Notes under the pieces: generated by a model
Seen by the model: the letters and a program-made list of their open reading frames with translations, nothing else
Database searches by the model: none
What the model was told of the DNA's origin: nothing
Program-made: the position numbers and the translations under genes
Part shown: positions 1 through 54,935 of the stretch, one piece after another
Layout: every line of letters starts with the position of its first letter
Position numbering within the stretch: position 1 is the first letter of the stretch
DNA from: Eunapius fragilis
Taxonomy: Eukaryota > Porifera > Demospongiae > Spongillida > Spongillidae
Direction of reading: 5' to 3'
Assembly: GCA_963681505.1 (NCBI GenBank)
Contig: OY811971.1
Coordinates: forward strand, 9,047,991-9,111,990
Length of the DNA: 64,000 nucleotides

Positions 1-984
1 CAACAGAATCACAGGTACTAGTTGTAATAAAAGTAGAGTAACCTTTTACACTATGTTCACATTGTAATTTATAACAGCTGCAACTATCACAGTTTTGATT
101 CACGCACTTTAAATAAACTAGTTCGGTACTACGCTTATCATTTTATCATTTTACACCCCTTGCCTTCTTTACTGTAAATTTATGCATAAGCATGCATAAG
201 CCATCTATATCAATGCAGCTCTTGGTTTCCCTGAAATAAAAATTACATATGCATGCAGACTCGCAAAGCAGCGTGCAAAGCAGCGAAGTTAAACCGCATG
301 CGGTACTATAGACACGACAGAACACATGCATACAGTTTAAAAAATACATTGCGTACGACTGAAAATCAATTGAAATGTGTAAAAGTGCAACTTGGCTTAT
401 ACAATGTGATTACTGCCGTTTTTCGACGATGATGAATTAAGGTTTCATCGGAACGGACCCCTTTTATATCGCCGCATTTGTAGCATCCAGCGAGCTGAAT
501 GATCTCTCACAAAATGCATCCAATGTCGTCTCAAGAGTTGTACTTTCACATTCCTGTTATTGAAAACAAATATACTCATCAGCGGACCTTTTAGTTTTTT
601 TACTTCCCCCAAAAATGGCCTAAATTTACCCACTTCACTCGCGGACGCGGTATTAATAATCTATACTCAAGGATGATGACAGAATTAATATCTTAATAAA
701 TTACAGAAATGTTTCAAATTAGGACAAGAGCCTTTCTGAACAATTACATTTGGTTCTGTGCGATAAGCACAGTTACATTTGAGATCGGGTGGTATACATA
801 TTATTATCGTTCTATTGGGATGCAAAGGACATATCATAAATCACCGAAAGGTATGGCCATATGAGTCTTAAATGCAGTTCGATTCAATGCAATGAGATAT
901 ATGTACCATGTATGGTGTATCTCATGCTTATGAGATCAATTAATAATAACCATCTGCTGCTTTTGATGTCTCAGTGCTACATCC

Positions 985-1345
985 CCGCTTAATCCTTTAC
1001 ATATTGCTTAATCGGGCATAGGCCTATTACCCGGGACAGCAGCAAAGGCAACAGAGTAAAGCAAATATAGGAACAATGACGCGAAGTGTGCAGAGTTGGG
1101 ATGGCGCTGCGTTGCAATGGTGGTGGAGTTTTATGGTTGTTGGGGCAAAGAGACGAGGCTGGCTTTGTCGCAGCTGGCCTAAAAACTGGCTGATCGAATA
1201 AACACCACAAATCCCAAATGCTGAACAGCCTATATGGTCGTCTTAACCTCACTTTGATTAGGTAGATTGCTAGACCATACATAGCAGGTCTCACTTTGCT
1301 TCTTGTGAGCAAGTTGTTCCGCATGATATTTTTGTCTAGCAACTT
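985..1345 (-). repeat. GC-richer module, first copy
   Basis: A stretch of about 360 bp with more GC than its surroundings. It is related to 11560-11945 in inverted orientation, including the shared words gttgggatggcgctgc and gcaaaggcaacagagta in reverse complement. The two copies differ by many substitutions and small indels (for instance extra bases near 11745-11760), so they are older than the big palindrome. Longest open frames are about 100 codons and lack any domain I recognise. Probably an old transposon or captured fragment carried by the repeat family. Confidence 0.55.
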
Positions 1346-2011
1346 TAAGGTGTTGCTAATAATAACTAATTTACAACAAACTTGATTTCTGGAACTATAA
1401 TTTGCATTATCATCTTATGACTAATGCAGTTCAGAGACGATTGCATAATAAATCATATTGTATCGTACTAAGCATCATGAATGTATGACAGAACTCAGTA
1501 CTATGTAAGTGATTTTCTATTGAGCTATGCATACTATGAGCTCTCGTCATTGAACTATGCCATACTCAGTTCGCACAGTATAGCTGTATAGGTTGGCACA
1601 TTGCATAGTTGACAAAAGCGCGTCGGACGTAACGGAACGTTTGTCTGTGTAAATTATATTTAAAATATCTTATTTTCATTCATCCAAATGTATTAACATG
1701 ATGCGTTCGCATGAGGTTATTACACTATATATAAGCTCAATGCTAGCATAGTATTCTGCTCTCTTGTTATATCCACAATCAACAACGTCAAGCCGAACTA
1801 CTAATGATTCATTATTACAGCATTATTATAATCTTTTAGAATATTATTTATACAGTAAAACGATCCGTTATGTACGTTTGAAATTCTTCATTGGATTATC
1901 ATGCATGATATTTCATTGTTCTAGCATGCTGATATGTGTATAGATAAACTGAATCATCATTAGAGTAAGCGATGCTTAATACTACGCAAAATGCTTTGTT
2001 CAGAGAAATAA

Positions 2012-2117
2012 GCAATGTGAATGTAAATCTCGGGCCTTCGCGAAAAATATGCAATGTGAATGTAAATCTCGGGCCTTCGCGAAAAATATGCAATGTGAAT
2101 GTAAATCTCGGGGCCTT
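2012..2117 (+). repeat. 39-bp tandem repeat, copy number differs between arms
   Basis: Unit of 39 bp beginning gcaatgtgaatgtaaatctc, at 2012, 2051 and (partial) 2090. The right arm has only two such units (29764-29830). The 39-bp difference accounts exactly for the change in position sums from 31842 to 31881. A loss or gain of one unit by slippage or unequal exchange after the palindrome formed is the simplest reading. Confidence 0.93.
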
Positions 2118-3280
2118 GGGACTGCATTCATCATAAGATGATAATGCATCATCTGTTTAAATTTATCAACATCTGAGGATGTGGTCATCCTACTGTAATA
2201 AACTGTTTTGTGTAATCTATCGTCATCATGTATCACGGCTTGGTCTATATATGATTATTATCGTTTAAAGCAAGTAAAGTAGATTTACATTGCGTCCGTC
2301 AATGAGAAAAGCACGTACGTTGCTACAGTTATGTTTTAAATAATCCATTTTGAATAATTAGAAGGGCTTCATGAGCATCTTGTTAAACTGTTTACAGCAA
2401 ACATACAATGTGTTGATTCCAGGAACCTTAATGATGCATTATTCATTATATCTCAACAAACACCTGTAGTAAACGAGCTATTATTGTTGATCCGAGAATT
2501 TAAATCGCATCATAATTCACAATGTAGTTGATCTAATACGGATCGATTTCAGGATCCATTGTAGTAGACGTGAGTTTTGAACAATGGTATAATGCATGCA
2601 ATGTTCTTGAGCTGTACAATGCGTGCAATGTGCTTTTCTATTGAGCTATACTCGGTGTGTGTATCGCCGGCAATACAGTAGTAGCATAATGGGATGAGTA
2701 CAACAACTATAAACAGATGTGGATCCAAGAAAAAAAAGTACAAATAATGCTGGTACAGATGGGCACAACGCATGGATACCTCTCGATTTATCGTTCTATT
2801 GATCAACAATAGAACGATAATAATACAATGTATATTTGCCGTTCGCAAAACGCATACGTTCTGCTATTCGCACAGAACAAATGGTAATTGTCTGAACAAG
2901 CCGGCTTGTCCCTAGTAACACTAAATTTGAAAATATTTCTGTACTTGTGAATGCGCTGTTTATAATACATAGCATTGTAAATGAGAAAGACATTGCATAT
3001 GCCTATACTTTTGCTATTCAAAAGAAAAGCTGTTAATCACATCGAACCTTGCAAAACATGGATCCTAACATGTTGATACATTTGGATGAATGAGAATAAA
3101 GTCATTATAGTGAAAAAGTCGTGATATATAATCATAACGCTTAGTTCCATGCTATAAAAGTCCAATGCTTAACAATAACCTGCTCTTTTGGAATTGGCAT
3201 TAGATGAGCATTATATTAATAATTTTGGCTTCATCAATTTTTTTGCGACTCAATTCTAAATTTAGAATATAATTTACACA

Positions 3281-3535
3281 ATGATACGAACCCTTGTACG
3301 TTCGACAAGCTTTTGTCAAAAAAACTATGCAATGTGCATCCTTTTTTTCATTCAACCATACTATGTGCTTTCGTCATTGAACTATTGCAATGTGCATTTG
3401 TCAATGAATCAATGGTATGTGCTTTTGTCAATGTGCTTAGTCATTGAGTGTTTTATTCATTGAACTATGGAATGTATGTTTGTCTAAGACAGTGCAATGT
3501 GCTTTGTCATAGAATTATTCATAAATATATGGTAT
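3281..3535 (+). repeat. Degenerate 26-bp-type minisatellite
   Basis: Imperfect tandem copies of a motif close to cattgaactatgcaatgtg followed by cttttgt, with spacing of about 26-40 bp. Similar arrays lie at 6650-6835, 10240-10450 (reverse), 12580-12840, 32160-32395 and 32590-32825, always after a conserved block containing taatttacac and a cgttacgt-like word. The array is thus a fixed module of the repeat family. Confidence 0.7.
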
Positions 3536-6500
3536 GCTAAGTATTTCGAAATTATTAAAAACAGATTCAACTGAAACAATCATAATACATCATTATATGT
3601 TCATTTCTCATTGAACACAGTACCACGAATGTTCATCGTGACTGATCATATCTTTCTGTATTTGCAATCTACTGGATCTATTATCGCAACAACTCCCTTT
3701 GGGATCGGCTAATAATTACAACCCACAGCAAAGTGTAATTCATGCATTGTACAATCTTTATGTGTTTACAATCTACTGTATTGAGATTTCCATTGTAATA
3801 AGCCACGTTACAAGATGCCTTGTCCAGAGAAAAGAATGCGCGCATAACCACAATGATTAGCATCGCCCACGACGTACAATGTTTAAACAAAAGATGTAGT
3901 ACTAAGCATCGAAAATGTATGCCCATGATAAACATCAGCATGATAGAAGACTGATATATCATTCATAAATTCTGCTATTCTCATTTAATGAAGGATCCCA
4001 AACGCGTTTACTGTTTCACTTTATACATAATTTCCTAAATGATGATAATGCTGTAATAATGCATCATTAGTAATTCGGCTTGATAGCAGTTATAAACAGC
4101 TGGTATCTCAAAAAGAGGAGTTATGCTAGCATTGAGCTTATCTATAGTAATAACCTCATGAATGAGCGTTGCTTTTTATAAACCAACAACCACGTTACCA
4201 ACGGTCATGGGTAATGATGGAGATAATGATTCATAAAGGTATAAGCAGTGAGATGCATTAGCATTTAATAATACAATTAGGAAAACACATTCAATGTGTT
4301 ATTTCAGATCGTTTGAAGTTCATTATAATCATCGCCGCACGGCTTGGATCAACAACTGAATAATAGCTTCATGGATGAGTCCAACAATATAGAGGCATGG
4401 ATAATTATACTTGGTACAGTTGAGCACTATGCATGTATCGCAACAGCTCCTTTGAGATTGGCTAATAATTACAAACCACAGCAATGTAACACCCTATTAA
4501 CAGTTTCGTCAAGTTGCCAATAAATAATCTTGTTGATTGGTTATTATTTTTAGTCTATGCAGCAGAACTGTTTACAAAGTGCTTTGCTCATTGAACGACG
4601 TAATGGGAGTTTAGTGTAACCCGTCGTCATCTTGTCAGGACTGTTATGATTGTTTAGAAGCATTACTGCGATTAAATTATGACGATTTGATCAGTCGAAG
4701 GATGACCACATTCTTATTTTTAAAAAGATGAATGAAATTGTGATCAATTGTGGTTATAAGCTCTGATCAATGCTTAGTTCAATTAGTTAACCGCAATGCA
4801 AGAGATGGCTATTAACTTCTAAAAACAATGTCGGGCGTTATTGTTCGGCGTCGGTTCATCCAGCGAAACTGCGAATGGATAACCAGTAATATGCATGCAG
4901 CCATTACTACATGGATAACTGTAGCAGAAATTCCGTACCGTATATGCTGTAGTGATGTATTTAGCCATTGCGTTAAGCCGAACTTCTTAATGTATCATAC
5001 ACAAAATAAAAAATGTGTATACAATGCGCATTTGCATGTACAATTTCAACTATTTTTTTGAATCGGCTGCTATAAAATACCAATGACGTCCAATTTTATA
5101 AATCATTTATCCTGTATTTAAATCTATGCCATTATTAATAATACAATGATAAGCTACTTTCGTCATGCTTAAAACAACAAAGCACAATGCTTGCTTCACC
5201 AGTGCTCAATGCAAACAATAACGTCGAGCCGTTTGATTCTAGGATACGAACAGCACATTGATAATTGCTAATGAAAGTGAAAAGCCACGCTTATTTTTCT
5301 GGATGATTATTTCAAGATGGAAATTCATTATATATCCCATTGATTATTTGAGATCGGTTAAAAAGTCAATATACTGCCAACATTGTTATTAGAACTTCAG
5401 TTATTAATAGGCAATGCTCTTATCATATTAAATTTAGCACTGTACGTTGGAGCTTTTAAACGCAGTTGTTCACGATTTCATTCATCTGATAAAATTAATC
5501 AATATTATATTAGCAATGTCCCCCTTGAAATACTAATTATAAAAATAAGCGTGGCTTTTATCTGTTAGATTGATATCAGTATTGCTTGCGTAATGAGCAT
5601 TGTTCCATCTCAAAAGAACAGTGGAAAAGTGGCACTGGGCTTTTTTGTTTTCAGCATGGTGAAATTTGCATTTCACAGTATCAATAATGCAATTGCTTAC
5701 AGGAAAAATGACTTAACGTTACTGGTAGTTTAAAACAAACAATTCAAAGGAATAGAAGAAATTATATATGCATGCATTGTACATATCCCATTATTAGTTC
5801 GGCTTAACGCAATCCAGCATAGTTGGAACTTACAGCATGTATATCACTACATTGTCCTTGTAGCAATGAACCATCAAATGAAGTATAACGAGCCATTCGT
5901 TGATTCGCATGATGAACCGTCGACGCCAACGTAGAACCCCAAAAACGATCTACGGGCGACATAGTTAATAGCCAATCAAAAGCATTGCTTTTATTGAACT
6001 AAGCATTGTGAGCGCTTTTAACCACAATCGATCACAATTTAATTGCTACGTTTAAAATATGTATGTGGGCATACTTCTACTGTAATAAACAATGTTTCGT
6101 GTAAAGAATTGGCATAACTTTATGATCTGTTACGATTATTACCGTGTAATATAGTAATGTAACATTTAAATAGAAAGCTAATTGCAAGTACAGTTCGGCT
6201 GCAATGCTTAAAATCAGTACTATTCAACAATTTAAATGTTATGAATCGATTAAATTATAATTGGCAGGCTCGTTTTATAATTGATTCCTGGCAATGATCT
6301 ATTATTATCATTCGCAGTTCGAGATTCACATTGCATACTTCAGTAGGCATATTACCGTAGCACTAAGGATTGCGTATGACGATTACTGAAATGATGATTC
6401 AGCTATCTATTAATTTATCAGCGTGATAGTAGAATGATAAATCATTATTCAATTAAGAATCTCATGCGTACGTATCGTTTCGTTTCACTGTTTTATTGCT

Positions 6501-6649
6501 GCTTCATTTGTAATTTGGCTTGACTTTGTTGTTAATAGCCAATCTGATTTACATACCGTATTAATAATAATTCATGCCGTATTAAAAATAATTCATGCTT
6601 TATCAATCTTAAAACAATGAGATCTTTACACTGTGAAACGATCCATTAC

Positions 6650-6835
6650 GTTCGACACGCTTTTGTCTATGAACTATACAATTTGCTTCACCATTGAGCT
6701 ATACTGAACTGTGTCATGTGAAATGAGCTTTTATCACTAAACTATACAATGTGCCATTGATAATAAATCGTTTTCTTCATTAAATAATGCAATATGCTTT
6801 TTTTATACAAGTGGTTTGTTACAGAACTATATATA
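6650..6835 (+). repeat. Degenerate 26-bp-type minisatellite
   Basis: Shorter and more decayed copy of the cattgaactatgcaatgtg array. It is followed at 6905-6950 by the block with cacagcagcatgaatgttc and actgatcac that also follows the arrays at 3281, 12580 and 32590. It ends at a run of ta dinucleotides near 6826-6838. Confidence 0.6.
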
Positions 6836-7144
6836 TATAGGGGATGGTAATTGTTTCGAAATGATTAAGAGCATATTCACCTGAATCAATCATAATGCAT
6901 AATGTGTATTTCTCATTGAACACAGCAGCATGAATGTTCATCCCAACTGATCACAGTTTAATACCTTTTATTAAAATATTGGATGTCGGTATGCGCCCAT
7001 TGCTAATTTTCCTTTTCTCTGAACTAGTCATCTTATGTGTAATGCAGTGGATTATAAACGCTACTATGCATGAATATACGGTTTCACATCGCTGCGGGAT
7101 GTAATAAGTGGGTTATGTAAAGGAGCGGTAGCGATACATTCATG

Positions 7145-7760
7145 CATAGTATCTATCTGAAGCAGCATTATTGGTACAATTTTATTTTTTCGGATCCATG
7201 TGTCATCTCATTATGCAAGATAAGGCCATGCATGCATTGATGACGTTGAAATGGACTTGTACTTCCAAGCAATGGAAATAATAAGTGGTACGTGGTTGTA
7301 CTATTAAATATTGATGCACATCACTGCTTTTACGATTATGAATCATTATTTAGATAAGTGACGTGGACTATCGTGGGAAATGGTTTATAAACAATAGCTT
7401 ATTGTGTCTTTCCTCATTGAACGAAGCAAAGGTTTCTTTCCTTCGGTAGCGATATAGTATTTATCTGAAGCAGCATTATTGGTACAATTTTATTTTTTCG
7501 GATCCATGTGTCATCTCATTATGCAAGATAAGGCCATGCATGCATTGATGACGTTGAAATGGACTTGTACTTCCAAGCAATGGAAACAATAAGTGGTACG
7601 TGGTTGTACTATTAAATATTGATGCACATCACTGCTTTTACGATTATGAATCATTATTTAGATAAGTGACGTGGACTATCGTGGGAAATGGTTTATAAAC
7701 AATAGCTTATTGCATGCAAGTGTCTTTCCTCATTGAACGAAGCAAAGGTTTCTACAAGTG
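7145..7760 (+). repeat. Direct tandem duplication of about 308 bp
   Basis: Two nearly identical copies start near 7151 and 7459, both with the block cggatccatgtgtcatctc and a later gtgggaaatggtttataaac. The few differences include tggaaataat versus tggaaacaat (7280s and 7580s). Both arms hold the same two copies with the same private differences (mirror 24121-24736), so the duplication came before the large palindrome. It sits close to the fold point of the nested older palindrome. Confidence 0.9.
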
Positions 7761-8675
7761 TCTTTCCTCTACATAAGCTCAACGCTACCATTACTCCTGC
7801 ACTTTTGAGATCGGCGATTTATAACTATTTGTAACAAAGTCAAGCCGAATTACTAATGACGCATTGTTGTAGCAATGAAATGTTTTAGAAAATTATTTAC
7901 GCAGTGAAACGATCCGTTACGTACGTTTGAGATTCTTAATAGAATGGAAAACCATAAATCATGTTTGATGCATCATTCTTTTAACATGCTGATATTTTTT
8001 TATTGATATGTTTATATAGAACTTAATCATCATTAGACAGTCAACGTCATTTACAATGCTACGGCAATATGCTTTGTTCAGAGAAATATGCAACGGGAAT
8101 TTAAATATCGCACTGCATTACAGATATACGATCATTATGCTTGGTGATTTTAAATCTCGCGGCCTTTACATATGATGGTACATTAAGTTTCAACATTTAA
8201 GTAAGTTAACAATTTTAACATGTTACTAATCAAGCCCATCGGTAATTATTTAATTCAAAATGGTTAAACTTGTTGATTGGTTATGATTTTATGCATCCCA
8301 ACATGTTGATATATGAATGAAATTGTGAACAATTGTGGTTGATATTGCTTAGTTGAATAAGTGAAATATTAAATAATTTAAACGGAATGCTTAGAGATTG
8401 ACTAGTAACTTCAAATTATTAATTCCAAAGGCATTGCGTTAAATAGAACTAATAATGTATCATACACGTAATGAGAAATGTACAATGCATGAATGTATAT
8501 TTTCTACTACTCGGCTGTTATAAACTACCATTAACGTCGAATGTTATAAATCATCTATCCTGCATATAAATCTATGGGATTATTCTTAATACTGTGGAAC
8601 ACAAAGCATCACGAAACTCCTTTCTTTAGATGGAAGCCATGATCTGCAATGGGAAGGGCCGATACCAAGAGGACG

Positions 8676-8722
8676 AACCTTTGTTTATGCAACCGACAAA
8701 CGTGCTTGCATAAACAAAGGTT
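8676..8722. repeat. 16-bp perfect stem-loop
   Basis: aacctttgtttatgca (8676-8691) is followed after 15 bp by its exact reverse complement (8707-8722). It lies inside a block (8609-8740) that shares its first part, including gatggaagccatgatctgca, with the block bordering the palindrome centre (15361-15395 and 16004-16040). Mirror copy at 23159-23205. Confidence 0.85.
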
Positions 8723-9742
8723 ATTCCAAGAAGAGAAGGGAATCATGGAGAGATTATATATGCCTTGTGCTTTCCCCCTTGAAATAATCATCCGGAATAA
8801 TAAGCGTGGTTTTCACTCTATTTGTAATAATTTATATGCAGTATAATGTTAATTAATACGGCTTTACGTCATTGATTGACGTTGTGATTATTTAATAGCA
8901 GTAATGCTTTGAAATAAACTGACAGATGATGGGTTAGATTCGTTCAATGAGAAAAGCATCTCTCTACAGTTCTAAATCATAACCAATCAACAAGTTAAAC
9001 TATTTTGAATCATTTGAATAAATTTAATGATTATTGATGGCAACTTGTTGAAACTGTTAATAGGGTGTTACATTGCTGTGGGTTGTAATTATTAGTCGAT
9101 CTCAAAGGAGCTGTTGCGATACATGCATAGTGCCCATCTGTTTACTAAGTACGATTTAATCCATGCCTCTATATTGTTGGACTCATTCATCCATGCCTCT
9201 ACATTGTTGGACTGCCTCTATATTGTTGGTCACATCCCGTTATGTTATTATCCGGTTTTTGATCCATGCCTTGATACGGTTGGAGATGATTAAAACGTAC
9301 TTCAAATAATGAATGGAATCTATTCAACGAGAATGCACACATTACTGCTTATACCTTTATGAATCATTATCTCCATGATTAAGAAAAGTTCCATGGGTAA
9401 AGGCTTATGTCTTGTCGCATTGAACGAAGCAGTGCTCATTCGTGAGGTTATTGCTCTATATAAGCTCAATGCTTGCAGTACTCCTGCGCTCTTATGAGAG
9501 CGGCTATTTATATCAAGCCGAATTACTAATGACTCATTATTATCATCTGTTAGCATATTAATTATACAGTGAAACATCAGCGCGTTACGTGCGTTTGAGA
9601 TCCTGAATTGAATGAGAATGTCTTCTATCATGCTGATATTTATGGATAACAGAATCATAATCATCATTACAGTAAACGTCATGGGGCGTACATTTACGAT
9701 GCTTATAGGGTACTATAAAAATAACTAGCAACGCCCATGACA

Positions 9743-9964
9743 ATATTAAATATAGCATGAATTAACAGCAAACGTAACAGCAAAGGCCGGCATTCACGTT
9801 GTACAATAAAGCAAAGGCCGACATTGACGTTGCATATTTCTCTGAACAAAGCATATTACGACAGATAAATATGCTACGTCAATGTCGGCCTTTGCTTTAT
9901 TCAGAGAAATGTGCAACGGCCTTTGCTGTTAAGTTTGCTGTTAATTCATGCTATATTTAATATT
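9743..9964. repeat. 222-bp hairpin element
   Basis: The stretch folds on itself: aatattaaatatagcatg at 9743 pairs with the complementary end at 9947-9964, and further in gcaaaggccgacattgacgt near 9811 pairs with its complement near 9880. The arms are interrupted by small indels. It is inserted within a module whose relatives elsewhere lack it (compare 3900-3960), which suggests a foldback insertion. Mirror copy at 21917-22138. No target duplication could be assigned. Confidence 0.8.
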
Positions 9965-10239
9965 ATTTTTAGTAATGATGATTTATGCGGGCATTCGTTT
10001 CTCTGAACGAGTAACGTGGCTTTTGGAAATCGCAATACAGTAAATTATGAACACAGAAAGATGCTAGAATTGTTTCACATTGCTGTGGGTTGTAATTATT
10101 AGCCGATCTCTAAAGTGTGGGACAGAAAGATGTGATCAGTCACGATAAACATTCGTGGTACTGTGCGCAATGAGAAAGCACATATAATGCATTAAGATTG
10201 TTTCTGCTTTTAATAAATACCCTACATTATGAATAGTTC

Positions 10240-10450
10240 TATGACAAAGCACATTGCATTGTTTTTAGATAAAAAATACATTCCATTGTTCAATGAATGA
10301 AACACTCAATGACTAAGTACATCAAAAGCACATATCATAGTTCATTGACATTTAAATGCACATTGCATAGTTCAATGACGAAAGCAATAGGGAAGCACAT
10401 TGCATCGTTCAATGACAAAAGCGCGTGACACGTAACGGTTCGTATCATTG
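10240..10450 (-). repeat. Degenerate 26-bp-type minisatellite, reverse orientation
   Basis: Reverse-oriented array with repeated ttcaatgacaaaagc and gcacattgcat words. It is the inverted partner of 3281-3535 in the nested old palindrome; the adjoining block 10430-10465 pairs with 3260-3300. Confidence 0.65.
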
Positions 10451-11559
10451 TGTAAATTATATTCTAAAAGATCTCATTTGATGAAGCATGAATTATTATG
10501 GTAAATACCCATAATGCCAATATCAAAAGAATGCAAGCATTGAGCTTTTATCGCATTGAACTAAGCATTATGATTATATATCATTCATTCAAACGTATCA
10601 ACATTATAGGATCCATTGTTATGCATGGTTGGATGCGCACAATTAACAGCTCAATAGCAAAAGTATATGCATATGCAATGTGCTTTCTCATCGCCTATGC
10701 TATATAGGTATGATGATAATAAGGTTATAAATACAGATGGGACAAGTGAACAATTACCATTTGTTCATTGCGAATAGCAGAAAGTACGTATTCTGCGATC
10801 GGCTAATATACATATTATTATTATCGTTCTATTGAGATCGACACCAGTAACCTCAAAGCATTGTGCCCATCTCTACCAAGCATTATTTTTTTTGTTTGGA
10901 TCCGTGTCTGTATATTGTTATTGGACTCATCGGATTATGCTATTACATTACCGGCTATACTCACACAGAGTATTGCTCAGTTGAAAAGCACATTACATAG
11001 TTCGCATAATACAGCTCAATAGGGAAGCACATTGCATAGATCAAAGACAAGCGAGTCGGTTGGGCCCTATACATAGACAAAGCACAAAACAGTTTATCAT
11101 ACAAGAGGGTCATGAATTTAGGAAGTTTCATTCGTCGGTCAATACACTTTTATACTGATGTAAGCTTCCAGCTAAGAGCGTTATCGCTATGAATTGAAAT
11201 GGTTGGAAAGTTCGATACTAAAATAATTCATGTATGCCTGTTAAAGCGTTGAGCAAATTGATCAATGCATTGGGCCTAATATCATTCAGAGAGATTATGA
11301 TTATTATAATGGAGCAATGTAAATTCTATATAGGCGCGTCTCAAACATTGTGCTTTTCTCATTGAACTAAAAACTTGTATAAGTCACAAAAGTCATATCC
11401 ATCTTAATACTGAAGTGTTGATGTTCTGTACATATCACATGTAACCTAGCACAGAAATGTAGAAATACTAGCAATGTGCTTTTTTCATTGAAGGAATCTA
11501 CATTACTAGTAGCTTTAATAATCGACCAAGCCGATGACGATAGGTTACAAAAGTACATA

Positions 11560-11945
11560 TTGGAACAAGAATACACATACCAAACACCTAGACAAAAACA
11601 TTGTCGGAACAACTTGCTCACAAGGAGCAAAGTGAGTCCTGCTAAGTATGGCTCTAGCATTGCACCTAATCAAAGTGAGGTAAAGACGACCCTGTAGGCT
11701 GTTAAGCATTTGGGATTTGTAAGTGTTGGTTCGAACAGCCAGTCGTGAGGCCAATTGGCTGCGACAAAGCCTGCCTCGCCTCTGTGCCCCAACAGCCATA
11801 AGACTCCACCACCATTCTAATGCAGCGCCATCCCAACTCTGCACACTTCGCGTCGTTGTTCCTATGTTTGCGTTACTCTGTTGCCTTTGCTGCTGCCCCG
11901 GGTGATATGCCCACTTCTACAATGTGTAAAGGGATGGCACTGAGA
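11560..11945 (+). repeat. GC-richer module, second copy (inverted)
   Basis: Diverged inverted partner of 985-1345 within the same arm. It contains the cluster ctgttgcctttgctgctg near 11878-11895 and a CCCGGG site just after it. Flanking modules also pair (740-985 with 11945-12190), which anchors the outer part of the nested palindrome. Overlapping open frames of 60 to about 100 codons exist on both strands, but their coding is not supported by motifs or by a conserved frame between the two copies. Confidence 0.55.
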
Positions 11946-12579
11946 CAGCAGATATTAATAATATGGTTATTAATAATTGATCTAATGAGCATACCATACA
12001 TGGTACATAAATCATTGTATACTACATTTAAAGATTCATCTACATACCTTTCGGTGGTTTAAGGTTATGTCCTTTCCATCTCAATAGAACGATGTATACC
12101 ATCCGATCTCAAAAGTACAGTAAGGTAATACATACGTTCTGCTTATCGCACCGAAACAATTGTAATTTGTTCAGAAAGGCTTTTCAAGGTCCCTAATAAA
12201 ACTATTAACCTGTCTCATCTTATATAAAGATTGTTTTTAAAATGAATGTGATGTTTATAATTCATAGCATGGGCAATGGGGAAAGCACATTGCAGATGCG
12301 CATAAGTTTGCTATTGAAAAGAAAAGCTGTTAATCACATCTAACCATGCGAATGCATGGATCCTAACACGTTGACACAGTTGGATGAGTGAAAATAAAAT
12401 TATTATAGTGAGAAGCCATGATTTATAATCACAATGCTTAATTCAATGCGATATAATGCTTGCATTACTCCTGAACTTTTGAGATTGGCATTATATTCAT
12501 GCTTCTGAAGTACTGAGATCTTTTAGAATATTTATTCATGCTTCAAGAATATAATTTACACTGGGAAACGATCCGTTAC

Positions 12580-19000: not shown

Positions 19001-22000
19001 CACATATTATGTATTATGATTGTTTCAGTTGAAACCATACCCTACATATAGTTCTATGACAAAGCACATTGCATAGTTTTTAGACAAAAACACATTTCAT
19101 AGTTCAATGAAGAAAATACATAGTATATAGTTGACTGTCAAAAGCACATTGTATAGTTTAATGACAAAAGCACATTGACAAAAGCACATTGCATAGCTCA
19201 GTGACGGATGCATAGTAGTATAGCTCAATAGAAAAGCACATTGGATAGTTCGCTCTTACAGAAGAAAGTGCATAGTTCAGTGTGACAAAAGCGCATCGAA
19301 CGTAACGGATCGTTTCCCAGTGTAAATTATATTCTTGAAGCATGAATAAATATTCTAAAAGATCTCAGTACTTCAGAAGCATGAATATAATGCCAATCTC
19401 AAAAGTTCAGGAGTAATGCAAGCATTATATCGCATTGAATTAAGCATTGTGATTATAAATCATGGCTTCTCACTATAATAATTTTATTTTCACTCATCCA
19501 ACTGTGTCAACGTGTTAGGATCCATGCATTCGCATGGTTAGATGTGATTAACAGCTTTTCTTTTCAATAGCAAACTTATGCGCATCTGCAATGTGCTTTC
19601 CCCATTGCCCATGCTATGAATTATAAACATCACATTCATTTTAAAAACAATCTTTATATAAGATGAGACAGGTTAATAGTTTTATTAGGGACCTTGAAAA
19701 GCCTTTCTGAACAAATTACAATTGTTTCGGTGCGATAAGCAGAACGTATGTATTACCTTACTGTACTTTTGAGATCGGATGGTATACATCGTTCTATTGA
19801 GATGGAAAGGACATAACCTTAAACCACCGAAAGGTATGTAGATGAATCTTTAAATGTAGTATACAATGATTTATGTACCATGTATGGTATGCTCATTAGA
19901 TCAATTATTAATAACCATATTATTAATATCTGCTGTCTCAGTGCCATCCCTTTACACATTGTAGAAGTGGGCATATCACCCGGGGCAGCAGCAAAGGCAA
20001 CAGAGTAACGCAAACATAGGAACAACGACGCGAAGTGTGCAGAGTTGGGATGGCGCTGCATTAGAATGGTGGTGGAGTCTTATGGCTGTTGGGGCACAGA
20101 GGCGAGGCAGGCTTTGTCGCAGCCAATTGGCCTCACGACTGGCTGTTCGAACCAACACTTACAAATCCCAAATGCTTAACAGCCTACAGGGTCGTCTTTA
20201 CCTCACTTTGATTAGGTGCAATGCTAGAGCCATACTTAGCAGGACTCACTTTGCTCCTTGTGAGCAAGTTGTTCCGACAATGTTTTTGTCTAGGTGTTTG
20301 GTATGTGTATTCTTGTTCCAATATGTACTTTTGTAACCTATCGTCATCGGCTTGGTCGATTATTAAAGCTACTAGTAATGTAGATTCCTTCAATGAAAAA
20401 AGCACATTGCTAGTATTTCTACATTTCTGTGCTAGGTTACATGTGATATGTACAGAACATCAACACTTCAGTATTAAGATGGATATGACTTTTGTGACTT
20501 ATACAAGTTTTTAGTTCAATGAGAAAAGCACAATGTTTGAGACGCGCCTATATAGAATTTACATTGCTCCATTATAATAATCATAATCTCTCTGAATGAT
20601 ATTAGGCCCAATGCATTGATCAATTTGCTCAACGCTTTAACAGGCATACATGAATTATTTTAGTATCGAACTTTCCAACCATTTCAATTCATAGCGATAA
20701 CGCTCTTAGCTGGAAGCTTACATCAGTATAAAAGTGTATTGACCGACGAATGAAACTTCCTAAATTCATGACCCTCTTGTATGATAAACTGTTTTGTGCT
20801 TTGTCTATGTATAGGGCCCAACCGACTCGCTTGTCTTTGATCTATGCAATGTGCTTCCCTATTGAGCTGTATTATGCGAACTATGTAATGTGCTTTTCAA
20901 CTGAGCAATACTCTGTGTGAGTATAGCCGGTAATGTAATAGCATAATCCGATGAGTCCAATAACAATATACAGACACGGATCCAAACAAAAAAAATAATG
21001 CTTGGTAGAGATGGGCACAATGCTTTGAGGTTACTGGTGTCGATCTCAATAGAACGATAATAATAATATGTATATTAGCCGATCGCAGAATACGTACTTT
21101 CTGCTATTCGCAATGAACAAATGGTAATTGTTCACTTGTCCCATCTGTATTTATAACCTTATTATCATCATACCTATATAGCATAGGCGATGAGAAAGCA
21201 CATTGCATATGCATATACTTTTGCTATTGAGCTGTTAATTGTGCGCATCCAACCATGCATAACAATGGATCCTATAATGTTGATACGTTTGAATGAATGA
21301 TATATAATCATAATGCTTAGTTCAATGCGATAAAAGCTCAATGCTTGCATTCTTTTGATATTGGCATTATGGGTATTTACCATAATAATTCATGCTTCAT
21401 CAAATGAGATCTTTTAGAATATAATTTACACAATGATACGAACCGTTACGTGTCACGCGCTTTTGTCATTGAACGATGCAATGTGCTTCCCTATTGCTTT
21501 CGTCATTGAACTATGCAATGTGCATTTAAATGTCAATGAACTATGATATGTGCTTTTGATGTACTTAGTCATTGAGTGTTTCATTCATTGAACAATGGAA
21601 TGTATTTTTTATCTAAAAACAATGCAATGTGCTTTGTCATAGAACTATTCATAATGTAGGGTATTTATTAAAAGCAGAAACAATCTTAATGCATTATATG
21701 TGCTTTCTCATTGCGCACAGTACCACGAATGTTTATCGTGACTGATCACATCTTTCTGTCCCACACTTTAGAGATCGGCTAATAATTACAACCCACAGCA
21801 ATGTGAAACAATTCTAGCATCTTTCTGTGTTCATAATTTACTGTATTGCGATTTCCAAAAGCCACGTTACTCGTTCAGAGAAACGAATGCCCGCATAAAT
21901 CATCATTACTAAAAATAATATTAAATATAGCATGAATTAACAGCAAACTTAACAGCAAAGGCCGTTGCACATTTCTCTGAATAAAGCAAAGGCCGACATT

Positions 22001-25000
22001 GACGTAGCATATTTATCTGTCGTAATATGCTTTGTTCAGAGAAATATGCAACGTCAATGTCGGCCTTTGCTTTATTGTACAACGTGAATGCCGGCCTTTG
22101 CTGTTACGTTTGCTGTTAATTCATGCTATATTTAATATTGTCATGGGCGTTGCTAGTTATTTTTATAGTACCCTATAAGCATCGTAAATGTACGCCCCAT
22201 GACGTTTACTGTAATGATGATTATGATTCTGTTATCCATAAATATCAGCATGATAGAAGACATTCTCATTCAATTCAGGATCTCAAACGCACGTAACGCG
22301 CTGATGTTTCACTGTATAATTAATATGCTAACAGATGATAATAATGAGTCATTAGTAATTCGGCTTGATATAAATAGCCGCTCTCATAAGAGCACAGGAG
22401 TACTGCAAGCATTGAGCTTATATAGAGCAATAACCTCACGAATGAGCACTGCTTCGTTCAATGCGACAAGACATAAGCCTTTACCCATGGAACTTTTCTT
22501 AATCATGGAGATAATGATTCATAAAGGTATAAGCAGTAATGTGTGCATTCTCGTTGAATAGATTCCATTCATTATTTGAAGTACGTTTTAATCATCTCCA
22601 ACCGTATCAAGGCATGGATCAAAAACCGGATAATAACATAACGGGATGTGACCAACAATATAGAGGCAGTCCAACAATGTAGAGGCATGGATGAATGAGT
22701 CCAACAATATAGAGGCATGGATTAAATCGTACTTAGTAAACAGATGGGCACTATGCATGTATCGCAACAGCTCCTTTGAGATCGACTAATAATTACAACC
22801 CACAGCAATGTAACACCCTATTAACAGTTTCAACAAGTTGCCATCAATAATCATTAAATTTATTCAAATGATTCAAAATAGTTTAACTTGTTGATTGGTT
22901 ATGATTTAGAACTGTAGAGAGATGCTTTTCTCATTGAACGAATCTAACCCATCATCTGTCAGTTTATTTCAAAGCATTACTGCTATTAAATAATCACAAC
23001 GTCAATCAATGACGTAAAGCCGTATTAATTAACATTATACTGCATATAAATTATTACAAATAGAGTGAAAACCACGCTTATTATTCCGGATGATTATTTC
23101 AAGGGGGAAAGCACAAGGCATATATAATCTCTCCATGATTCCCTTCTCTTCTTGGAATAACCTTTGTTTATGCAAGCACGTTTGTCGGTTGCATAAACAA
23201 AGGTTCGTCCTCTTGGTATCGGCCCTTCCCATTGCAGATCATGGCTTCCATCTAAAGAAAGGAGTTTCGTGATGCTTTGTGTTCCACAGTATTAAGAATA
23301 ATCCCATAGATTTATATGCAGGATAGATGATTTATAACATTCGACGTTAATGGTAGTTTATAACAGCCGAGTAGTAGAAAATATACATTCATGCATTGTA
23401 CATTTCTCATTACGTGTATGATACATTATTAGTTCTATTTAACGCAATGCCTTTGGAATTAATAATTTGAAGTTACTAGTCAATCTCTAAGCATTCCGTT
23501 TAAATTATTTAATATTTCACTTATTCAACTAAGCAATATCAACCACAATTGTTCACAATTTCATTCATATATCAACATGTTGGGATGCATAAAATCATAA
23601 CCAATCAACAAGTTTAACCATTTTGAATTAAATAATTACCGATGGGCTTGATTAGTAACATGTTAAAATTGTTAACTTACTTAAATGTTGAAACTTAATG
23701 TACCATCATATGTAAAGGCCGCGAGATTTAAAATCACCAAGCATAATGATCGTATATCTGTAATGCAGTGCGATATTTAAATTCCCGTTGCATATTTCTC
23801 TGAACAAAGCATATTGCCGTAGCATTGTAAATGACGTTGACTGTCTAATGATGATTAAGTTCTATATAAACATATCAATAAAAAAATATCAGCATGTTAA
23901 AAGAATGATGCATCAAACATGATTTATGGTTTTCCATTCTATTAAGAATCTCAAACGTACGTAACGGATCGTTTCACTGCGTAAATAATTTTCTAAAACA
24001 TTTCATTGCTACAACAATGCGTCATTAGTAATTCGGCTTGACTTTGTTACAAATAGTTATAAATCGCCGATCTCAAAAGTGCAGGAGTAATGGTAGCGTT
24101 GAGCTTATGTAGAGGAAAGACACTTGTAGAAACCTTTGCTTCGTTCAATGAGGAAAGACACTTGCATGCAATAAGCTATTGTTTATAAACCATTTCCCAC
24201 GATAGTCCACGTCACTTATCTAAATAATGATTCATAATCGTAAAAGCAGTGATGTGCATCAATATTTAATAGTACAACCACGTACCACTTATTGTTTCCA
24301 TTGCTTGGAAGTACAAGTCCATTTCAACGTCATCAATGCATGCATGGCCTTATCTTGCATAATGAGATGACACATGGATCCGAAAAAATAAAATTGTACC
24401 AATAATGCTGCTTCAGATAAATACTATATCGCTACCGAAGGAAAGAAACCTTTGCTTCGTTCAATGAGGAAAGACACAATAAGCTATTGTTTATAAACCA
24501 TTTCCCACGATAGTCCACGTCACTTATCTAAATAATGATTCATAATCGTAAAAGCAGTGATGTGCATCAATATTTAATAGTACAACCACGTACCACTTAT
24601 TATTTCCATTGCTTGGAAGTACAAGTCCATTTCAACGTCATCAATGCATGCATGGCCTTATCTTGCATAATGAGATGACACATGGATCCGAAAAAATAAA
24701 ATTGTACCAATAATGCTGCTTCAGATAGATACTATGCATGAATGTATCGCTACCGCTCCTTTACATAACCCACTTATTACATCCCGCAGCGATGTGAAAC
24801 CGTATATTCATGCATAGTAGCGTTTATAATCCACTGCATTACACATAAGATGACTAGTTCAGAGAAAAGGAAAATTAGCAATGGGCGCATACCGACATCC
24901 AATATTTTAATAAAAGGTATTAAACTGTGATCAGTTGGGATGAACATTCATGCTGCTGTGTTCAATGAGAAATACACATTATGCATTATGATTGATTCAG

Positions 25001-28000
25001 GTGAATATGCTCTTAATCATTTCGAAACAATTACCATCCCCTATATATATATAGTTCTGTAACAAACCACTTGTATAAAAAAAGCATATTGCATTATTTA
25101 ATGAAGAAAACGATTTATTATCAATGGCACATTGTATAGTTTAGTGATAAAAGCTCATTTCACATGACACAGTTCAGTATAGCTCAATGGTGAAGCAAAT
25201 TGTATAGTTCATAGACAAAAGCGTGTCGAACGTAATGGATCGTTTCACAGTGTAAAGATCTCATTGTTTTAAGATTGATAAAGCATGAATTATTTTTAAT
25301 ACGGCATGAATTATTATTAATACGGTATGTAAATCAGATTGGCTATTAACAACAAAGTCAAGCCAAATTACAAATGAAGCAGCAATAAAACAGTGAAACG
25401 AAACGATACGTACGCATGAGATTCTTAATTGAATAATGATTTATCATTCTACTATCACGCTGATAAATTAATAGATAGCTGAATCATCATTTCAGTAATC
25501 GTCATACGCAATCCTTAGTGCTACGGTAATATGCCTACTGAAGTATGCAATGTGAATCTCGAACTGCGAATGATAATAATAGATCATTGCCAGGAATCAA
25601 TTATAAAACGAGCCTGCCAATTATAATTTAATCGATTCATAACATTTAAATTGTTGAATAGTACTGATTTTAAGCATTGCAGCCGAACTGTACTTGCAAT
25701 TAGCTTTCTATTTAAATGTTACATTACTATATTACACGGTAATAATCGTAACAGATCATAAAGTTATGCCAATTCTTTACACGAAACATTGTTTATTACA
25801 GTAGAAGTATGCCCACATACATATTTTAAACGTAGCAATTAAATTGTGATCGATTGTGGTTAAAAGCGCTCACAATGCTTAGTTCAATAAAAGCAATGCT
25901 TTTGATTGGCTATTAACTATGTCGCCCGTAGATCGTTTTTGGGGTTCTACGTTGGCGTCGACGGTTCATCATGCGAATCAACGAATGGCTCGTTATACTT
26001 CATTTGATGGTTCATTGCTACAAGGACAATGTAGTGATATACATGCTGTAAGTTCCAACTATGCTGGATTGCGTTAAGCCGAACTAATAATGGGATATGT
26101 ACAATGCATGCATATATAATTTCTTCTATTCCTTTGAATTGTTTGTTTTAAACTACCAGTAACGTTAAGTCATTTTTCCTGTAAGCAATTGCATTATTGA
26201 TACTGTGAAATGCAAATTTCACCATGCTGAAAACAAAAAAGCCCAGTGCCACTTTTCCACTGTTCTTTTGAGATGGAACAATGCTCATTACGCAAGCAAT
26301 ACTGATATCAATCTAACAGATAAAAGCCACGCTTATTTTTATAATTAGTATTTCAAGGGGGACATTGCTAATATAATATTGATTAATTTTATCAGATGAA
26401 TGAAATCGTGAACAACTGCGTTTAAAAGCTCCAACGTACAGTGCTAAATTTAATATGATAAGAGCATTGCCTATTAATAACTGAAGTTCTAATAACAATG
26501 TTGGCAGTATATTGACTTTTTAACCGATCTCAAATAATCAATGGGATATATAATGAATTTCCATCTTGAAATAATCATCCAGAAAAATAAGCGTGGCTTT
26601 TCACTTTCATTAGCAATTATCAATGTGCTGTTCGTATCCTAGAATCAAACGGCTCGACGTTATTGTTTGCATTGAGCACTGGTGAAGCAAGCATTGTGCT
26701 TTGTTGTTTTAAGCATGACGAAAGTAGCTTATCATTGTATTATTAATAATGGCATAGATTTAAATACAGGATAAATGATTTATAAAATTGGACGTCATTG
26801 GTATTTTATAGCAGCCGATTCAAAAAAATAGTTGAAATTGTACATGCAAATGCGCATTGTATACACATTTTTTATTTTGTGTATGATACATTAAGAAGTT
26901 CGGCTTAACGCAATGGCTAAATACATCACTACAGCATATACGGTACGGAATTTCTGCTACAGTTATCCATGTAGTAATGGCTGCATGCATATTACTGGTT
27001 ATCCATTCGCAGTTTCGCTGGATGAACCGACGCCGAACAATAACGCCCGACATTGTTTTTAGAAGTTAATAGCCATCTCTTGCATTGCGGTTAACTAATT
27101 GAACTAAGCATTGATCAGAGCTTATAACCACAATTGATCACAATTTCATTCATCTTTTTAAAAATAAGAATGTGGTCATCCTTCGACTGATCAAATCGTC
27201 ATAATTTAATCGCAGTAATGCTTCTAAACAATCATAACAGTCCTGACAAGATGACGACGGGTTACACTAAACTCCCATTACGTCGTTCAATGAGCAAAGC
27301 ACTTTGTAAACAGTTCTGCTGCATAGACTAAAAATAATAACCAATCAACAAGATTATTTATTGGCAACTTGACGAAACTGTTAATAGGGTGTTACATTGC
27401 TGTGGTTTGTAATTATTAGCCAATCTCAAAGGAGCTGTTGCGATACATGCATAGTGCTCAACTGTACCAAGTATAATTATCCATGCCTCTATATTGTTGG
27501 ACTCATCCATGAAGCTATTATTCAGTTGTTGATCCAAGCCGTGCGGCGATGATTATAATGAACTTCAAACGATCTGAAATAACACATTGAATGTGTTTTC
27601 CTAATTGTATTATTAAATGCTAATGCATCTCACTGCTTATACCTTTATGAATCATTATCTCCATCATTACCCATGACCGTTGGTAACGTGGTTGTTGGTT
27701 TATAAAAAGCAACGCTCATTCATGAGGTTATTACTATAGATAAGCTCAATGCTAGCATAACTCCTCTTTTTGAGATACCAGCTGTTTATAACTGCTATCA
27801 AGCCGAATTACTAATGATGCATTATTACAGCATTATCATCATTTAGGAAATTATGTATAAAGTGAAACAGTAAACGCGTTTGGGATCCTTCATTAAATGA
27901 GAATAGCAGAATTTATGAATGATATATCAGTCTTCTATCATGCTGATGTTTATCATGGGCATACATTTTCGATGCTTAGTACTACATCTTTTGTTTAAAC

Positions 28001-31000
28001 ATTGTACGTCGTGGGCGATGCTAATCATTGTGGTTATGCGCGCATTCTTTTCTCTGGACAAGGCATCTTGTAACGTGGCTTATTACAATGGAAATCTCAA
28101 TACAGTAGATTGTAAACACATAAAGATTGTACAATGCATGAATTACACTTTGCTGTGGGTTGTAATTATTAGCCGATCCCAAAGGGAGTTGTTGCGATAA
28201 TAGATCCAGTAGATTGCAAATACAGAAAGATATGATCAGTCACGATGAACATTCGTGGTACTGTGTTCAATGAGAAATGAACATATAATGATGTATTATG
28301 ATTGTTTCAGTTGAATCTGTTTTTAATAATTTCGAAATACTTAGCATACCATATATTTATGAATAATTCTATGACAAAGCACATTGCACTGTCTTAGACA
28401 AACATACATTCCATAGTTCAATGAATAAAACACTCAATGACTAAGCACATTGACAAAAGCACATACCATTGATTCATTGACAAATGCACATTGCAATAGT
28501 TCAATGACGAAAGCACATAGTATGGTTGAATGAAAAAAAGGATGCACATTGCATAGTTTTTTTGACAAAAGCTTGTCGAACGTACAAGGGTTCGTATCAT
28601 TGTGTAAATTATATTCTAAATTTAGAATTGAGTCGCAAAAAAATTGATGAAGCCAAAATTATTAATATAATGCTCATCTAATGCCAATTCCAAAAGAGCA
28701 GGTTATTGTTAAGCATTGGACTTTTATAGCATGGAACTAAGCGTTATGATTATATATCACGACTTTTTCACTATAATGACTTTATTCTCATTCATCCAAA
28801 TGTATCAACATGTTAGGATCCATGTTTTGCAAGGTTCGATGTGATTAACAGCTTTTCTTTTGAATAGCAAAAGTATAGGCATATGCAATGTCTTTCTCAT
28901 TTACAATGCTATGTATTATAAACAGCGCATTCACAAGTACAGAAATATTTTCAAATTTAGTGTTACTAGGGACAAGCCGGCTTGTTCAGACAATTACCAT
29001 TTGTTCTGTGCGAATAGCAGAACGTATGCGTTTTGCGAACGGCAAATATACATTGTATTATTATCGTTCTATTGTTGATCAATAGAACGATAAATCGAGA
29101 GGTATCCATGCGTTGTGCCCATCTGTACCAGCATTATTTGTACTTTTTTTTCTTGGATCCACATCTGTTTATAGTTGTTGTACTCATCCCATTATGCTAC
29201 TACTGTATTGCCGGCGATACACACACCGAGTATAGCTCAATAGAAAAGCACATTGCACGCATTGTACAGCTCAAGAACATTGCATGCATTATACCATTGT
29301 TCAAAACTCACGTCTACTACAATGGATCCTGAAATCGATCCGTATTAGATCAACTACATTGTGAATTATGATGCGATTTAAATTCTCGGATCAACAATAA
29401 TAGCTCGTTTACTACAGGTGTTTGTTGAGATATAATGAATAATGCATCATTAAGGTTCCTGGAATCAACACATTGTATGTTTGCTGTAAACAGTTTAACA
29501 AGATGCTCATGAAGCCCTTCTAATTATTCAAAATGGATTATTTAAAACATAACTGTAGCAACGTACGTGCTTTTCTCATTGACGGACGCAATGTAAATCT
29601 ACTTTACTTGCTTTAAACGATAATAATCATATATAGACCAAGCCGTGATACATGATGACGATAGATTACACAAAACAGTTTATTACAGTAGGATGACCAC
29701 ATCCTCAGATGTTGATAAATTTAAACAGATGATGCATTATCATCTTATGATGAATGCAGTCCCAAGGCCCCGAGATTTACATTCACATTGCATATTTTTC
29801 GCGAAGGCCCGAGATTTACATTCACATTGCTTATTTCTCTGAACAAAGCATTTTGCGTAGTATTAAGCATCGCTTACTCTAATGATGATTCAGTTTATCT
29901 ATACACATATCAGCATGCTAGAACAATGAAATATCATGCATGATAATCCAATGAAGAATTTCAAACGTACATAACGGATCGTTTTACTGTATAAATAATA
30001 TTCTAAAAGATTATAATAATGCTGTAATAATGAATCATTAGTAGTTCGGCTTGACGTTGTTGATTGTGGATATAACAAGAGAGCAGAATACTATGCTAGC
30101 ATTGAGCTTATATATAGTGTAATAACCTCATGCGAACGCATCATGTTAATACATTTGGATGAATGAAAATAAGATATTTTAAATATAATTTACACAGACA
30201 AACGTTCCGTTACGTCCGACGCGCTTTTGTCAACTATGCAATGTGCCAACCTATACAGCTATACTGTGCGAACTGAGTATGGCATAGTTCAATGACGAGA
30301 GCTCATAGTATGCATAGCTCAATAGAAAATCACTTACATAGTACTGAGTTCTGTCATACATTCATGATGCTTAGTACGATACAATATGATTTATTATGCA
30401 ATCGTCTCTGAACTGCATTAGTCATAAGATGATAATGCAAATTATAGTTCCAGAAATCAAGTTTGTTGTAAATTAGTTATTATTAGCAACACCTTAAAGT
30501 TGCTAGACAAAAATATCATGCGGAACAACTTGCTCACAAGAAGCAAAGTGAGACCTGCTATGTATGGTCTAGCAATCTACCTAATCAAAGTGAGGTTAAG
30601 ACGACCATATAGGCTGTTCAGCATTTGGGATTTGTGGTGTTTATTCGATCAGCCAGTTTTTAGGCCAGCTGCGACAAAGCCAGCCTCGTCTCTTTGCCCC
30701 AACAACCATAAAACTCCACCACCATTGCAACGCAGCGCCATCCCAACTCTGCACACTTCGCGTCATTGTTCCTATATTTGCTTTACTCTGTTGCCTTTGC
30801 TGCTGTCCCGGGTAATAGGCCTATGCCCGATTAAGCAATATGTAAAGGATTAAGCGGGGATGTAGCACTGAGACATCAAAAGCAGCAGATGGTTATTATT
30901 AATTGATCTCATAAGCATGAGATACACCATACATGGTACATATATCTCATTGCATTGAATCGAACTGCATTTAAGACTCATATGGCCATACCTTTCGGTG

Positions 31001-31841
31001 ATTTATGATATGTCCTTTGCATCCCAATAGAACGATAATAATATGTATACCACCCGATCTCAAATGTAACTGTGCTTATCGCACAGAACCAAATGTAATT
31101 GTTCAGAAAGGCTCTTGTCCTAATTTGAAACATTTCTGTAATTTATTAAGATATTAATTCTGTCATCATCCTTGAGTATAGATTATTAATACCGCGTCCG
31201 CGAGTGAAGTGGGTAAATTTAGGCCATTTTTGGGGGAAGTAAAAAAACTAAAAGGTCCGCTGATGAGTATATTTGTTTTCAATAACAGGAATGTGAAAGT
31301 ACAACTCTTGAGACGACATTGGATGCATTTTGTGAGAGATCATTCAGCTCGCTGGATGCTACAAATGCGGCGATATAAAAGGGGTCCGTTCCGATGAAAC
31401 CTTAATTCATCATCGTCGAAAAACGGCAGTAATCACATTGTATAAGCCAAGTTGCACTTTTACACATTTCAATTGATTTTCAGTCGTACGCAATGTATTT
31501 TTTAAACTGTATGCATGTGTTCTGTCGTGTCTATAGTACCGCATGCGGTTTAACTTCGCTGCTTTGCACGCTGCTTTGCGAGTCTGCATGCATATGTAAT
31601 TTTTATTTCAGGGAAACCAAGAGCTGCATTGATATAGATGGCTTATGCATGCTTATGCATAAATTTACAGTAAAGAAGGCAAGGGGTGTAAAATGATAAA
31701 ATGATAAGCGTAGTACCGAACTAGTTTATTTAAAGTGCGTGAATCAAAACTGTGATAGTTGCAGCTGTTATAAATTACAATGTGAACATAGTGTAAAAGG
31801 TTACTCTACTTTTATTACAACTAGTACCTGTGATTCTGTTG
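16004..31841 (-). repeat. Right arm of giant near-perfect palindrome
   Basis: Mirror image of the left arm, 443 bp longer in net. It carries a TTAA-flanked 478-bp foldback element (17248-17725) that the left arm lacks, and one fewer 39-bp unit at 29764-29830. The rest matches base for base wherever I compared it. Mirror copies of left-arm features lie at: tandem 308-bp pair 24121-24736, hairpin 21917-22138, 294-bp tandem pair 16798-17855 (split by the insertion), gene-like patch 16338-16797. The arm ends at or beyond 31841; the bases after it continue the same module family but have no partner inside the window. Confidence 0.97.
17248..17725. mobile_element. TTAA-flanked foldback MITE, right arm only
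   Basis: The right arm is interrupted at a point where the left arm reads straight through (mirror of about 14155). TTAA stands on both sides (17244-17247 and 17726-17729). The element begins tgtctaatgtcctgggcg and ends with its complement followed by three extra bases. The inverted repeats run over about 200 bp each, so almost the whole element folds back. Near each end lies a second stem-loop, gcgtaccccgcggtg paired with its complement across a 10-nt loop. It is GC-richer than the arm. TTAA duplication is typical of piggyBac-type elements, but no transposase is present and the family is an inference. Confidence 0.92.
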
Positions 31842-42480: not shown

Positions 42481-42676
42481 ATCAAGTGACCTTTGGTGGG
42501 TGTGGTCATGGATAGTGACAGGTGTCAGAATTAACAACGAACTTTACAACAGATCATGCACCACTGAATGTTTGTGTATTCTGAGGATGAATTATTGTTA
42601 ATAATGGCATCATGTGAATCTATATCTTAATACCGTTCAAAACATTTACTATGTAGCAGTCAGTTCCCTGATACTT

Positions 42677-54930: not shown

Positions 54931-54935
54931 TATGC

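Follow-up and report, generated by a model that had tools for sequence, protein, structure and literature searches.

Near-perfect giant palindromes in the genome of the sponge Eunapius fragilis: probable inverted duplication followed by gene conversion between the arms

Two stretches of DNA of about 28 kb that lie head to head on one chromosome and are practically identical raise the question of how this likeness arose and what maintains it. Giant palindromes whose arms convert each other are best known from sex chromosomes, and the explanation given there is the rescue of genes lacking a recombination partner. The palindrome considered here lies in the freshwater sponge Eunapius fragilis, in a stretch of 64,000 bp (hereafter the window; GenBank assembly GCA_963681505.1, contig OY811971.1, positions 9,047,991 to 9,111,990 of the forward strand), for which a first-pass annotation, made from the letters alone, had described arms of 15.4 kb and had left open whether they result from a very recent duplication or from continuing gene conversion. 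The contig is called C1 below; adding 9047990 to a window position gives the genome position, and negative positions lie to the left of the window. We examined 114 kb around the palindrome (40 kb added to the left of the window and 10 kb to the right) and searched the 218,937,333 bases (24 contigs) of the E. fragilis assembly odEunFrag1.1, which was built from HiFi reads with HiCanu and scaffolded with Hi-C (PMC12616128; this and the other papers are cited throughout from parts of their text).

Inside the window, a near-perfect palindrome with a 608-bp spacer was found as annotated, and the arms (1–15395 and 16004–31841) differ in exactly the three ways that had been named: a single substitution at 9487/22394, a tandem unit of 39 bp (after 2012) and an insertion of 482 bp, whose empty site lies at 14151 in the left arm. 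The arm length of 15.4 kb, in contrast, held only within the window, whose edge cuts the structure: extending the assembly to the left of base 1, a check that the annotation had advised, showed that the left arm continues to -12699 and that the right arm ends at 43353, and self-comparison with the added flanks gave a whole palindrome of ~56 kb (C1:9035291–9091343). No unassigned base (N) occurs in the 114 kb, the spacer is non-palindromic except for one 48-bp stretch at 79%, and the flanks beyond the arms (27.3 kb on the left, 29.6 kb on the right) did not match each other at an E-value of 1e-10. A chance origin is excluded by length and identity.

The arms are not uniformly alike. The inner zone (-10005 to 15395, 25.4 kb) shows one substitution and five small insertions or deletions (indels; two of a single base, the others of 6, 7 and 39 bases) besides the 482-bp insertion. 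The outer zone, by contrast, carries 32 substitutions within ~1.5 kb together with three small indels, and there the left arm alone has a 1201-bp insertion, with a poly-A tail and resembling a long interspersed element (LINE). At the outer-zone rate, more than 500 substitutions would be expected in the inner zone (25,401 x 32/1,493) and 1 was observed. Since one duplication alone gives no such step in divergence, these results argue for homogenisation after the duplication, and arm-to-arm gene conversion is its plain reading. Moreover, 13 of the 32 outer differences could be polarised against the other half of a nested palindrome lying at the outer end, and they split into 7 derived in the right arm and 6 derived in the left (of the remainder, 5 show a third state and 14 lack a counterpart in that half). 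Because of this split, both arms seem to have mutated independently, the inner part being overwritten afterwards, and the alternative left open by the annotation is thus tipped towards homogenisation. One long conversion event or many short ones may equally fit the C1 data.

The C1 palindrome is not alone. Searching with arm pieces and hopping from match to match, rather than scanning the whole genome, revealed at least five palindromes (on C1, C4, C5, C11 and C17), a count that is a lower bound and not an unbiased one because of this hopping. Those on C4, C5, C11 and C17 have arms of 8–19 kb, and in all five palindromes the arms stop abruptly and give way to flanks unrelated to each other (apart from 44 bp in common at C17), with no N in the stretches read. 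In a comparison that leaves out the arm middles (~7.5 kb in C5 and ~9.5 kb in C11), all 11 substitutions of C5 fall in the innermost ~380 bp, with none in the other 11.1 kb of arm read, and all 17 of C11 in the innermost ~220 bp, with none in the other 7.9 kb. A sixth palindrome, on C13, spans an assembly gap and is not counted as proven. No core common to all palindromes was found, only repeats in common, and a recurrent process is for this reason likelier than one mobile element; a mobile element carrying the whole palindrome was rejected on the same grounds, and no second whole copy of the C1 palindrome appeared among the matches listed in the arm-piece searches. Altogether, mutations in either half of the C1 palindrome appear to be overwritten from the other half, and these sequence comparisons suggest, with a probability of roughly 0.7, that inverted duplication recurs in this genome by such a process rather than through one mobile element, that gene conversion follows it, and that the resulting palindromes serve no dedicated function.

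An assembly artefact, in which the head-to-head joining of two haplotypes or of a fold-back read chimera produced a false palindrome, deserves consideration because the assembly contains 802 gaps and had 212 misjoins or missing joins corrected by hand (PMC12616128), authors surveying palindromes in animals caution that scaffolding can create spurious ones (PMC7953838), amplified DNA yields palindromic reads (PMC13265396) and the C13 palindrome has its gap at the axis. We nevertheless regard it as unlikely, mainly since joined haplotypes or a fold-back would keep matching beyond the arms, whereas the five counted palindromes end in unrelated flanks; their lack of N in the stretches read, a 608-bp spacer, one-sided insertions and a divergence step are likewise at odds with it. 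In addition, the differences between the C1 arms in the inner zone lie at most 7,475 bp apart (2012 to 9487), less than the mean read length of ~9.8 kb calculated from published read totals, so that the arms could be distinguished. If the palindrome is real, its practically identical inner arms could also reflect a single very recent inverted duplication without any gene conversion, the outer zone differing for another reason such as a later exchange with a third copy, and the nested palindrome around that zone does offer further copies. However, the 7:6 split looks like ordinary mutation in both arms, 14 of the differences lack a counterpart in the nested copy, a step of this kind is also seen in C5 and C11 at their inner edge, and several palindromes that are all brand new would be a coincidence; we therefore hold this explanation to be improbable.

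Two functional explanations fare less well. Palindromes could be the cores of centromeres or pericentromeres, their symmetry kept by selection on dyad symmetry, as dyad symmetry has been reported at the centromeres of other animals (PMC9070824, PMC13081366). Indeed, the six palindromes on six chromosomes lie nearer the middle than expected by chance (mean distance 0.091 of chromosome length, P 0.002, in a test chosen after the fact that includes C13 and covers 6 of 23 chromosomes, found by hopping), and the C1 arms combine low guanine-plus-cytosine (GC) content with the lack of a coding signal. Yet the palindromes come from hopping and not from a scan, that of C4 sits at 0.26 of the chromosome length, a 183-bp satellite occurs on C13 away from the palindrome, and a methyltransferase-like frame stands ~10 kb beyond the left arm end of C1, which leaves a centromeric role very improbable. 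A version in which each chromosome has its own unrelated palindrome as (peri)centromere core, kept perfect by conversion and selected for dyad symmetry but not for sequence, strikes us as quite improbable. The first-pass annotation had also proposed that the arms might be transcribed into long double-stranded RNA as a source of small RNAs. Their geometry would permit this and they contain transposon fragments, but among the matches listed those of arm sequence outside the locus are few and short, and we hardly expect such a role.

Several observations weigh against recurrent duplication followed by conversion, and it should be noted that the arm comparison rests on one assembled consensus sequence, in whose building true differences between the arms may have been masked. 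The 482-bp insertion is still one-sided, which means that its spot has not been converted since it arrived. Arm GC is 36.8%, lower than in the flanks (40.0 and 40.7%), and GC-biased conversion would predict the opposite; as an example, the arms of primate X palindromes are richer in GC than their flanks (PMC8981503). Both findings speak against a conversion that still continues. Internal repetition is heavy in the C1 arm, where repeats of at least 80 bp cover 57–59% (2.7% in the left and 16.3% in the right flank), and reaches 30% in C17, but is absent from C13 (2.5%). In addition, a crude null reached the summed length of an older nested palindrome, described below, in 15 of 500 trials.

As to how the palindrome would have been formed, the junctions give a direction. 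The sequence 15824–16084 spans the spacer/right-arm junction and matches 8441–8691 in one piece at 84%, the 86-bp dispersed repeat is whole over the right junction and cut on the left, and the outer nested palindrome is truncated on the left. These three observations indicate that the right arm is continuous with its surroundings, the left arm being the copy and the right arm the donor. In this scenario, a stretch of diverged repeats would have been duplicated in inverted orientation, the right arm (16004–43353) being copied leftward and joined at 15395|15396 so that the 608-bp spacer remained, likely through fold-back or template switching in replication or break repair. Earlier palindromes probably formed at the same locus, as decayed remains inside the arm suggest; the nested palindrome at the outer end (39868–44445) is younger than these remains (726–12184). 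The arms would then have diverged by ~2% before gene conversion overwrote the inner 25 kb and missed the outer 1.5 kb. Note that ~250 bp separate the C1 divergence step from the nested palindrome's axis (-10258 to -10006), which may have stopped a conversion tract. On C5, the identical zone ends at the end of a ~690-bp element (element end 6110602, first difference 6110607). Such an element end and such an axis are possible barriers to conversion tracts.

The repeats shared among palindromes were followed through the genome. A 23-base stretch of the 26-bp unit found in the C1 arms, with at most 3 mismatches allowed, gave 26 genome matches listed, 18 in the C1 palindrome and 8 in that of C17 (the reversed control gave 0 in the genome); as a general palindrome mark the unit was rejected, being restricted to these two. 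A module common to the C5, C13 and C17 palindromes also occurs elsewhere, with clusters near the palindromes of C1 (0.16 Mb away) and C4 (0.34 Mb away); the chance of clusters that near is 0.037 and 0.047, respectively. It forms at least 21 clusters on at least 14 chromosomes (50 matches listed, the best 40 of 50 candidates being scored), several of them far from any palindrome found, and the idea that it marks one palindrome per chromosome is a weak lead. The ~690-bp element has equally oriented copies at 270 bp (C1), 418 bp (C4) and 386 bp (C5) from the inner arm end, and its C11 copy is far from that end. Among its full-length matches listed, 10 of 25 fall in mirrored pairs of equal score (C1, C4 twice, C11 and a satellite pair on C13), compared with 0 of 34, 0 of 14 and 0 of 16 in other repeat families. 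These families were queried with sequences taken from palindrome arms, and the lists hold the best 39 of 504 candidates (the ~690-bp element and the 14-match family), 38 of 1082 (the 34-match family) and 40 of 4453 (the 16-match family); a further family forms a mixed-strand cluster on C18. An involvement of the ~690-bp element in making palindromes is thus a lead, not a demonstrated cause. The satellite pair on C13 (at 2.68 and 2.75 Mb) was rejected as a near-perfect palindrome: it consists of inverted arrays of a 183–184-bp satellite at ~93%, ~69 kb apart (C13:2677501–2680500 and C13:2746501–2749500), and both arrays include a copy of the ~690-bp element. This satellite is a candidate centromeric satellite.

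Within the C1 arms no coding signal was found, and the annotation's statement that they hold no recognisable intact gene was borne out. The longest stop-free frame of the arm has 141 codons, in line with the mean of 140 in 30 simulated runs, compared with 363 and 309 codons in the flanks. Of the 5 distinct frames in the arm that reach 120 codons, the 2 scanned gave no Pfam match, a result in which short exons could be missed. When the genome was searched with window positions 2100–9000 and with a second arm stretch of 9,900 bp, the matches listed outside the locus were dispersed repeats and the C17 unit; such searches score the best candidates only, and no separate search was made with 9000–15300 or the outer end. 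The insertion labels used here (LINE-like for the 1201-bp one; MITE-like, i.e., resembling a miniature inverted-repeat transposable element, for the 482-bp one) are assumptions that we base on sequence features.

Compared with known systems, the C1 palindrome shares with those of primate X and Y chromosomes (PMC8981503; Rozen et al. 2003 as cited in PMC7953838) long arms of more than 99% identity (here 25.4 kb with 1 substitution), a short spacer (608 bp) and a sign of conversion, which at C1 is indirect: a divergence step with changes in both arms outside it, repeated at C5 and C11. In contrast, the primate palindromes lie on sex chromosomes, have GC-rich arms and often contain genes, whereas the sponge palindromes occur on six chromosomes, and the C1 arm lacks a coding signal and is poorer in GC than its flanks. 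The C1 palindrome is therefore a variant of gene-converting giant palindromes but is not filed under the sex-chromosome kind, as genes and high GC were looked for at C1 and not found; with six chromosomes carrying palindromes, sex linkage of all of them would require most chromosomes to be sex-linked. Among invertebrates, Folsomia candida and Adineta vaga also have inverted duplications within one chromosome (PMC5490193, PMC7953838), but these are defined by collinear genes, those of Folsomia span a wide range of divergence, and the authors caution against assembly errors. In Botryllus schlosseri, depth was taken to show that the long palindromes of a chromosome-level assembly are real (PMC12448946), but they are defined by gene blocks on a far larger scale. 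Hairpin-forming repeats of sponge mitochondria (PMC2800124) are likewise inverted-repeat DNA in sponges, but they are dispersed elements of organelle DNA and not 28-kb nuclear arms. A literature search for sponge palindromes, judged by titles and the beginnings of abstracts, gave mitochondrial or unrelated topics among the 12 of 29 papers listed, and the main text of the E. fragilis genome paper (PMC12616128) has no word containing 'palindrom' or 'centromer'; an earlier description of giant palindromes in sponges was thus not found, which is no proof that they are undescribed. Since the C1 arms lack a coding signal, gene rescue, the usual explanation of sex-chromosome palindromes, is not obviously applicable. 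If our reading is true, near-perfect palindromes without recognisable genes on several sponge chromosomes would mean that conversion can maintain such structures without gene rescue, and the sharp edges of the identical zones would be natural marks for measuring conversion tracts.

Table 1. Features of the C1 palindrome (window positions) and of the other palindromes (positions on their own contigs).
Feature	Position	Strand	Remarks
Left arm	-12699..15395 (C1:9035291 start); in window 1..15395	+	28,095 bp; self-comparison; copy on junction evidence
Spacer	15396..16003		608 bp
Right arm	16004..43353	-	27,350 bp; donor on junction evidence
Outer diverged zone, right arm	41833..43353	-	left counterpart -12699..-10006
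Self-complementary MITE-like insertion	17248..17729		482 bp; TTAA at both ends; right arm only
Older palindrome remains inside arm	726..12184		three nested blocks; axis 6455-6813; 69-78%
Nested palindrome at outer end	39868..44445		83.6-94.2% in pieces; whole on right, truncated in left arm
~690-bp element with terminal inverted repeats	14435..15125	+	mirrored 16274-16964; also in C4, C5, C11 palindromes
26-bp unit array	12583..12836	+	others near 3323-3505, 10230-10422 and mirrored copies
86-bp dispersed repeat	15993..16078	+	whole over spacer/right-arm junction; 75 bp left (15321-15395) at left junction
C4 palindrome	3700869-3709084 / 3710070-3718272		spacer 985 bp; 1 substitution, 2 bp from arm end
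C5 palindrome	6092004-6110988 / 6112656-6131604		spacer 1667 bp; 11 substitutions
C11 palindrome	4356533-4374148 / 4377075-4394721		spacer 2926 bp; 17 substitutions
C13 palindrome (not proven)			arms at least 9.4 kb; 200 N at axis within CTT/AGA repeat; 3 substitutions, 17 gaps
C17 palindrome	3471206-3479535 / 3479713-3488027		spacer 177 bp; 0 substitutions, 3 indels

Some minor observations concern the surroundings of these palindromes. In the left flank of C1 (-17870 to -16944), two adjoining frames match DDE_Tnp_1_7, presumably a transposase family of piggyBac-type elements, and the 482-bp insertion of the right arm has TTAA ends. To the right of the palindrome, the window contains broken retroelement frames (48518–51103), which we take to be BEL/Pao-like and for which Pfam gave only Integrase_H2C2 (for 49299–50225), and a tandem array of a 163-bp unit (54935–55820, 5.5 copies, 96%); no structured RNA or tRNA was detected in the window at the thresholds applied. 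On C17, a perfect 66-bp palindrome (C17:3478523–3478588) lies beside the 26-bp minisatellite and is mirrored in the other arm. The C18 cluster mentioned above extends over 142 kb (C18:4934447–5076353) and comprises a 333-bp repeat in eleven copies on mixed strands, several with equal scores; it is perhaps another region of nested inversions. Finally, contig C24 (28,504 bases), on which COX1 is read with TGA as tryptophan, was taken as the mitochondrial genome, and nuclear COX1-like matches with stop codons at C9:9625139–9626160 and C9:9674219–9675257 are probably mitochondrial DNA inserted into the nucleus.

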